Of a DNA stretch of 64,000 nt, positions 53,094-53,581 are shown in pieces. Below the pieces are notes generated by a model. That model had not been told where the DNA came from. It saw nothing but the letters and a program-made list of their open reading frames with translations, and ran no database searches. Within the stretch, counting starts at the first letter, position 1. Each line of letters begins with the position of its first letter. Source of the stretch: an uncultured Pelagibacteraceae bacterium (GTDB lineage: Bacteria; Pseudomonadota; Alphaproteobacteria; Pelagibacterales; Pelagibacteraceae); NCBI GenBank assembly GCA_902587515.1, contig CACILM010000001.1, forward strand, positions 124,001-188,000, read 5' to 3'. The position numbers and the translations under genes were made by a program.

Positions 53094-53110
53094 TTTAGAA
53101 TGATTATAAA
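53094..53110. promoter_or_regulatory. Irr ICE-type operator upstream of irr-like gene
   Basis: TTTAGAATGATTATAAA versus ICE consensus TTTAGAA-N3-TTCTAAA (13/14). Confidence 0.65.
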
Positions 53111-53134
53111 GTAGATCAAAAAGCGAACTAAAAC

Positions 53135-53542
53135 GTGAAAAAAATAGACATTTTAAAAAAATTAAGATCTTCCGGGTTAAGACCGACTAAACAAAGAGTT
53201 GAAATAGCTAGATTTTTATTTGAAAGAGAAAAAACTTTCCATTTTACAGTTGAAAGTCTAAACAAACTTTTGACTAAAAAATCGGCTTCTAAAATTGCGC
53301 TAGCTACAATTTATAATACCGTCCACGCATTTAAAACAGCCGGACATTTAAGTGAAGTTGAAGTAAGAGGAAACAAAACTTATTTTGATACTAATGTTTC
53401 AAATCACCACCATTTTTATGATAGCGATACTTCAGAATTAATAGACATCGATGCGAATGATGTAATCATTCAAAAAATTCCAAAAGCACCAAATGGTAAA
53501 AAAATTAAGAATGTTGAGGTATTTATAAATTTGAAAAATTGA
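53135..53542 (+). CDS. irr: Fur-family iron/heme regulator, Irr-like
   Basis: RSSGLRPTKQRVEIARFLFE, IALATIYNTVHAFKTAGHLSEVEV, SNHHHFYDSDTSELIDID; divergent from fabA as in many alphaproteobacteria. GTG start. Confidence 0.8.
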   Translation: MKKIDILKKLRSSGLRPTKQRVEIARFLFEREKTFHFTVESLNKLLTKKSASKIALATIYNTVHAFKTAGHLSEVEVRGNKTYFDTNVSNHHHFYDSDTSELIDIDANDVIIQKIPKAPNGKKIKNVEVFINLKN

Positions 53543-53564
53543 CAGTTTGTCGCTTGTTTTTCAC

Positions 53565-53581
53565 TTTAGAATAATTATAAA
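53565..53581. promoter_or_regulatory. Irr ICE-type operator upstream of katG
   Basis: TTTAGAATAATTATAAA versus ICE consensus TTTAGAA-N3-TTCTAAA (13/14); nearly identical to the copy upstream of irr. Confidence 0.65.

Follow-up and report, generated by a model that had tools for sequence, protein, structure and literature searches.

Irr, its ICE operator and the control of iron and peroxide enzymes by Irr are already known. Apo-Irr binds the ICE and is released by heme at the HxH motif, and the position of the site decides whether repression or activation follows (PMC7762939). In R. sphaeroides, Irr binds the mbfA and ccpA promoters and represses mbfA, the 5' end of which lies inside the Irr box (PMC3413700). 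In Rhizobium leguminosarum, Irr is released by heme at HxH without a cysteine heme-regulatory motif (HRM; PMC7762939). Comparison of the SAR11 locus described here with the regulons of Bradyrhizobium japonicum (bfr and the rubrerythrin-like blr7895) and R. sphaeroides (mbfA and ccpA) revealed an Irr-family regulator, the same 7-3-7 ICE, iron/peroxide enzymes as targets and a core-promoter site consistent with repression (PMC3413700, PMC7762939). In contrast to both, the SAR11 site has a TTATAAA half that overlaps the -10 element, and only a single locus could be detected in the regulon; katG is also a predicted direct target in SAR11, whereas katE of R. sphaeroides is not bound by Irr. The likeness to the R. 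leguminosarum type of Irr lies in an HHH/HxH heme site without an HRM (PMC7762939), with the heme response of the SAR11 protein predicted from its sequence; however, Irr works within a RirA network in R. leguminosarum, whereas the SAR11 regulon is tiny. The nearest functional analogue is mycobacterial furA-katG, a conserved pair in which a Fur-family regulator gene directly precedes katG (PMC2358910). The mycobacterial regulator belongs to another Fur subfamily, the M. tuberculosis pair is a single operon whereas the SAR11 genes each have their own predicted operator, and the SAR11 enzyme alternates with rubrerythrin; we infer that the two arrangements are likely convergent.

We analysed a 64,000-nucleotide stretch of DNA (the window) from a member of the family Pelagibacteraceae (SAR11), together with its genome of 1,047,064 bases (1.05 Mb) on 18 contigs. 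Two predicted Irr operators were located on the forward strand: TTTAGAATGATTATAAA (53,094-53,110) in the irr promoter, ending 24 bp ahead of the irr GTG (53,135), and TTTAGAATAATTATAAA (53,565-53,581) in the katG promoter, ending 8 bp ahead of the katG ATG (53,590). A first-pass annotation had placed these sequences before an Irr-like gene and katG and had matched each to the palindrome TTTAGAA-N3-TTCTAAA at 13 of 14 positions; both observations were reproduced. It had also described a shared block of 22 nt with two differences; the two differences were found, but the block common to both copies, TTTAGAATnATTATAAAnTAG, is 21 nt long. A pattern search of all contigs with TTTAGAANNNTT(A/C)TAAA (TTTAGAANNNTTMTAAA) returned two perfect matches, at irr and katG only, and the exact motif is thus not scattered at random genome positions. 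Matches with at most one mismatch were not enriched on the two strands of this genome (27 compared with 54 for the reversed-pattern control) and lay mostly within coding sequence, and three-mismatch matches in the window numbered 138 compared with 111.5 expected from shuffled sequence. Since loose matching is near or below control level in this AT-rich genome, only the near-exact motif is informative.

The irr gene (53,135-53,542, + strand) encodes a Fur-family iron response regulator of 135 aa from a GTG start; close relatives have ATG or GTG at the same position. Its initial description as Irr-like was upheld by domain and alignment. The protein matched Pfam FUR (PF01475; E = 2.7e-19, gathering score passed), and the top two of all models for it were the curated NCBIfam IrrA model (149.9 bits, 0.1 bit below the cut-off of 150) and the Irr model (135.6 bits, cut-off 170), far above the PerR and Fur models. 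An alignment of 15 diverse family members revealed an invariant HHH motif (H91-H92-H93). No cysteine was found in the 135-aa sequence, which hence has no heme-regulatory motif; the cysteine motif is of the Bradyrhizobium type only and does not define the Irr family. These data bear on an alternative in which operator and regulator are the same but the signal is peroxide, with a PerR-like Irr freeing katG or rubrerythrin when it is oxidised or degraded by H2O2. PerR is among the nearest solved relatives of the protein; however, the PerR models scored 65 and 60 bits compared with 149.9 and 135.6 bits for the Irr models, and the protein has neither the cysteine nor the heme-regulatory motif used by a proposed route of ROS-linked Irr degradation (PMC7762939).

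The downstream gene, katG (53,590-55,761, + strand), encodes a catalase-peroxidase of 723 aa, which scored 1020 bits against TIGR00198 (NCBIfam cat_per_HPI). Alignment to the solved KatG 3wnu revealed that the active-site segments RLTWH, YVNP, RMxMND and GGH are kept, as expected of the bifunctional KatG family with its distal and cross-link residues. KatG is a complete, canonical heme catalase-peroxidase, in line with its first description as a heme enzyme.

Analysis of the irr promoter identified a putative sigma-70 element, TTGATT-16-TATATT (53,061-53,088, + strand), which matched the consensus and was strongly conserved among close relatives. The first operator lies 6 bp downstream of its -10, over the expected transcription start, in an intergenic region shared with the divergent fabA (52,539-53,042, - strand); fabA, fabB and fabI all lie beside irr on the opposite strand. 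At katG, the operator extends over the spacer and the -10 hexamer TATAAA. Most relatives carry TTGAC(A/T) 16-17 bp ahead of the TATAAA that ends the site at their rubrerythrin (rbr) and katG promoters, where the operator likewise occupies spacer and -10; the -35 is weaker in the window's own close clade (TTGTTT). Both positions suit repression, which at katG is the most likely outcome because the site fills the spacer and -10. No terminator was found in the irr-katG intergenic sequence, so read-through from irr into katG is possible. We also observed a dyad, GACANNNTGTC (window 53,541-53,551), that spans the irr stop codon; it was kept in 30 of the 64 type-I katG loci described below (one with a changed centre), was absent at type-II katG and rubrerythrin loci, and could be bound by a further regulator that acts on katG.

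To assess conservation, 157 distinct irr loci were collected from the family Pelagibacteraceae, which are related by descent, so that counts overstate independence. Divergent fabA was upstream of irr at 157/157 loci, and the gene after irr was katG at 112 (type I at 64, type II at 48) and rubrerythrin at 44, together 156/157, with the remaining locus at a contig end. The site in the promoter of the scavenger gene (A or C accepted) was exact at 115 of 156 loci, compared with 0.06% in dinucleotide shuffles; it had one mismatch at 32 loci, two at 8 and four at 1. Sites are therefore kept before the orthologous genes, with at most one mismatch at 147/156 target promoters compared with 0.4% of shuffled promoters. 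The site between irr and fabA was exact at 82 loci and had one mismatch at 26 (108/157), and it was absent (three or more mismatches) at 37/157, among them 30 of the 64 type-I katG loci. Autoregulation of irr, as first proposed, is thus predicted for the 108 loci with a near-exact site and is not general. In the 29 closest loci, identity averaged 99% at the 14 positions of the motif, compared with 83-87% over the remaining intergenic bases. In 17/44 rubrerythrin and 11/48 type-II katG promoters (e.g. L040, L042, L044, L047 and L095), two Irr sites in opposite orientation, separated by about 30-32 bp, were observed on either side of the -35 TTGACTT, an arrangement that suggests two Irr dimers on the promoter.

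These results were weighed against the possibility that the motif is just the AT-rich core promoter (the TAGAAT/TATAAA -10 region) of two genes, with no involvement of Irr. Such a reading is consistent with the -10 spacing between TTGAC and the TATAAA of the site in many relatives, and with a very AT-rich genome in which three-mismatch matches are near the shuffled level. However, none of the 14 positions varies among 63/64 type-I katG promoters, exact sites occur nowhere else in the genome even though many promoters must exist, and at irr the site lies downstream of the putative -10. The overlap would account for one feature of the motif. The TTC to TTA change shared by the two sites had been taken as a lineage-specific Irr half-site, and this was not borne out, since the shift from C to A is graded across groups and tied to the -10 overlap: the canonical C was present in 19/22 promoters outside the family, whereas A and C were found in 24 and 20 SAR11 rubrerythrin promoters, in 38 and 9 type-II katG promoters, and A in 63/63 type-I katG promoters. 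Because the change sits on the gene-proximal side and creates the -10 TATAAA, it is best explained as a change that strengthened the -10 within the operator, in preference to an altered Irr half-site.

We then determined what became of the operator where irr is lost. Genera without irr keep katG, either elsewhere or directly behind fabA. Analysis of irr-less genomes revealed 17 katG promoters without an intact site, and the same was true of G001, G049 and G077; G006 has lost irr and retains an exact site before katG, in an assembly that is 83% complete. An intact site was therefore found at 1 of about 21 irr-less katG loci. The operators of L284 (TTTAGATCGATTACAAA) and L283 appear to be decaying, and L285 (G130) carries a remnant of irr, some 20 codons long, and a site with three mismatches. 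This co-loss with irr, with its one exception, rules against the motif being simply the -10 region of two promoters, an explanation that we regard as very improbable. A Fur paralog about 16 kb from irr (window ~36,388-36,717; best model ferric uptake regulator, below cut-off) could in principle bind the sites instead, and it is present here and linked in most relatives. However, a single, weak Fur-type match persists in irr-less genomes, yet katG has no intact site there, and the motif is an Irr ICE, not a GATAAT-type Fur box. The paralog is thus disfavoured, with only a slight chance of being the binder. At L219-L221, L222 (G006) and L283-L285, irr is lost or reduced to a remnant and katG now stands straight after fabA; judging from the genus codes, there were at least four separate losses. 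At L223 (G042), a peroxiredoxin-like gene (named by eye) follows fabA in the place of irr-katG, without an Irr site, and it may be a further type of peroxide scavenger, the third observed in this position.

The reach of the regulon was examined in the same manner. Across 147 family genomes there were 126 exact TTTAGAANNATTATAAA matches, 98 of which were beside irr; the 28 away from irr compared with about 51 in the reversed control, lay mostly inside genes and gave no sign of a wider regulon. Among 169 genus members, 204 TTTAGAAYNATTATAAA matches were found compared with 16 control matches. A wider Irr regulon was rejected because exact sites outside the locus did not exceed the control and fell mainly within genes, and the detectable regulon appears to be essentially the irr locus alone. 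One near-ICE, TTTAAAATNATTCTAAA, was observed about 82 bp upstream of a TRAP-type transporter solute-binding gene of the same genome (C1:73,993-75,138, outside the window). It adjoins a conserved AGATTGAATCT dyad and has been kept in the majority of 25 genus members (L329-L344, L350), and G004 has an exact site at seemingly the same position (L128). This candidate could not be tied to Irr.

The enzyme behind the operator was variable. In SAR11, katG is an offshore trait, present in most offshore but not coastal genera (PMC12636525), and some SAR11 are known to carry rubrerythrin (PMC11366302). Of 147 genomes, 21 encoded rubrerythrin and 96 encoded KatG, with no genome encoding both, and rubrerythrin was directly behind irr in 21/21. 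Mapping of katG-I, katG-II and rubrerythrin as three states onto a tree of 71 loci built from FabI-FabB-FabA-Irr required at least seven changes, a number that is approximate because the tree was a quick one. A KatG tree split type I from type II, and type-I SAR11 KatG grouped with the KatG of irr-less, operator-less SAR11 genera. The suggestion that Irr controls katG is supported by conserved sites that are tied to irr family-wide, although it was too narrow: irr is paired with a peroxide scavenger that can be either katG or rubrerythrin, and this pair forms the actual unit.

Sampling of other Alphaproteobacteria identified 26 loci with the same gene order, irr followed by rubrerythrin, and 23/26 had the ICE between the genes with at most two mismatches (shuffled, 0.4%); on this basis, the ancestral arrangement was probably irr paired with rubrerythrin and a canonical site. 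SAR11 differs in that rubrerythrin is often replaced by either of two katG lineages and in having a second operator at the irr promoter, where a site was found at 3/29 irr loci elsewhere in the class, only at two mismatches. Outside the family, 5/24 katG promoters had a site with at most two mismatches within 200 bp (L295, L306, L309, L311 and L315; shuffled, 0.5%), and Irr control of katG may extend beyond SAR11. We lean towards the view that Irr, a global iron regulator, has been reduced in SAR11 to a switch at one locus, in which regulator and operator are fixed, alternative scavengers (rubrerythrin or two katG lineages) have been plugged in at least seven times and a heme enzyme is gated by the adjacent heme-sensing regulator, so that selection keeps the regulation and not the enzyme.

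With considerable confidence, we propose that both sites are binding sites of the adjacent Irr, that katG is repressed without heme and irr is self-limited, that heme releases Irr, and that the same switch drives KatG or rubrerythrin family-wide. Comparison provided the sites, their conservation, genomic restriction, co-loss with irr and the enzyme exchange, to which the model adds binding, repression and the heme signal as predicted steps. Heme-free Irr, the form expected under shortage of iron and heme, would bind the operator in the katG promoter, and Irr on the spacer and -10 hexamer would block RNA polymerase. Irr would further restrain its own production by binding immediately downstream of the -10 of irr. 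Once heme becomes available, its binding at the HHH site would release Irr, and katG would be expressed only when the cell can supply KatG with heme. Across the wider family, one switch would serve KatG or rubrerythrin, with the enzyme exchanged while regulator and operator stay.

The direction of control is the weak step of this model. Rubrerythrin mRNA of Ca. P. ubique HTCC1062 (SAR11_0399) rose 1.57-fold under iron limitation, and the irr transcript followed stationary/growth phase, not iron (PMC2864753). From the 21/21 pattern, we infer that SAR11_0399 stands behind irr, and its rise in low iron opposes simple low-iron repression. It is not fatal to repression, since a weak mbfA rise in iron limitation coexists with Irr repression in R. 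sphaeroides (PMC3413700). The rise fits oxidative stress better than heme shortage (PMC2864753), R. sphaeroides mbfA is induced about 9-fold by H2O2 (PMC3413700), and the sole detectable targets are peroxide scavengers, all of which favour the PerR-like signal; however, rubrerythrin and KatG are also iron- or heme-loaded enzymes worth saving in iron shortage. Together with the model scores, this leaves peroxide as a tentative, less likely signal for the switch, and heme as the preferred one.

No report of katG as a direct Irr target, a single-locus regulon, an interchangeable enzyme or a -10-fused operator in SAR11 was found in the literature searched, which was covered in part. SAR11 are the most abundant ocean bacteria and have very few regulators, and iron is a scarce metal in the open ocean. 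We know of no genetic system for SAR11 and, to our knowledge, no control of SAR11 katG has been described. Given this scarcity of regulators and the lack of a genetic system, the way in which SAR11 couples peroxide defence to iron is poorly understood, and the conservation of a site across 156 loci offers a direct, testable prediction. That the enzyme was exchanged repeatedly while the operator persisted provides a clean natural experiment in which regulation outlives its target. Taken together, these data indicate that peroxide defence in SAR11 is probably linked to iron and heme supply via one self-contained switch.
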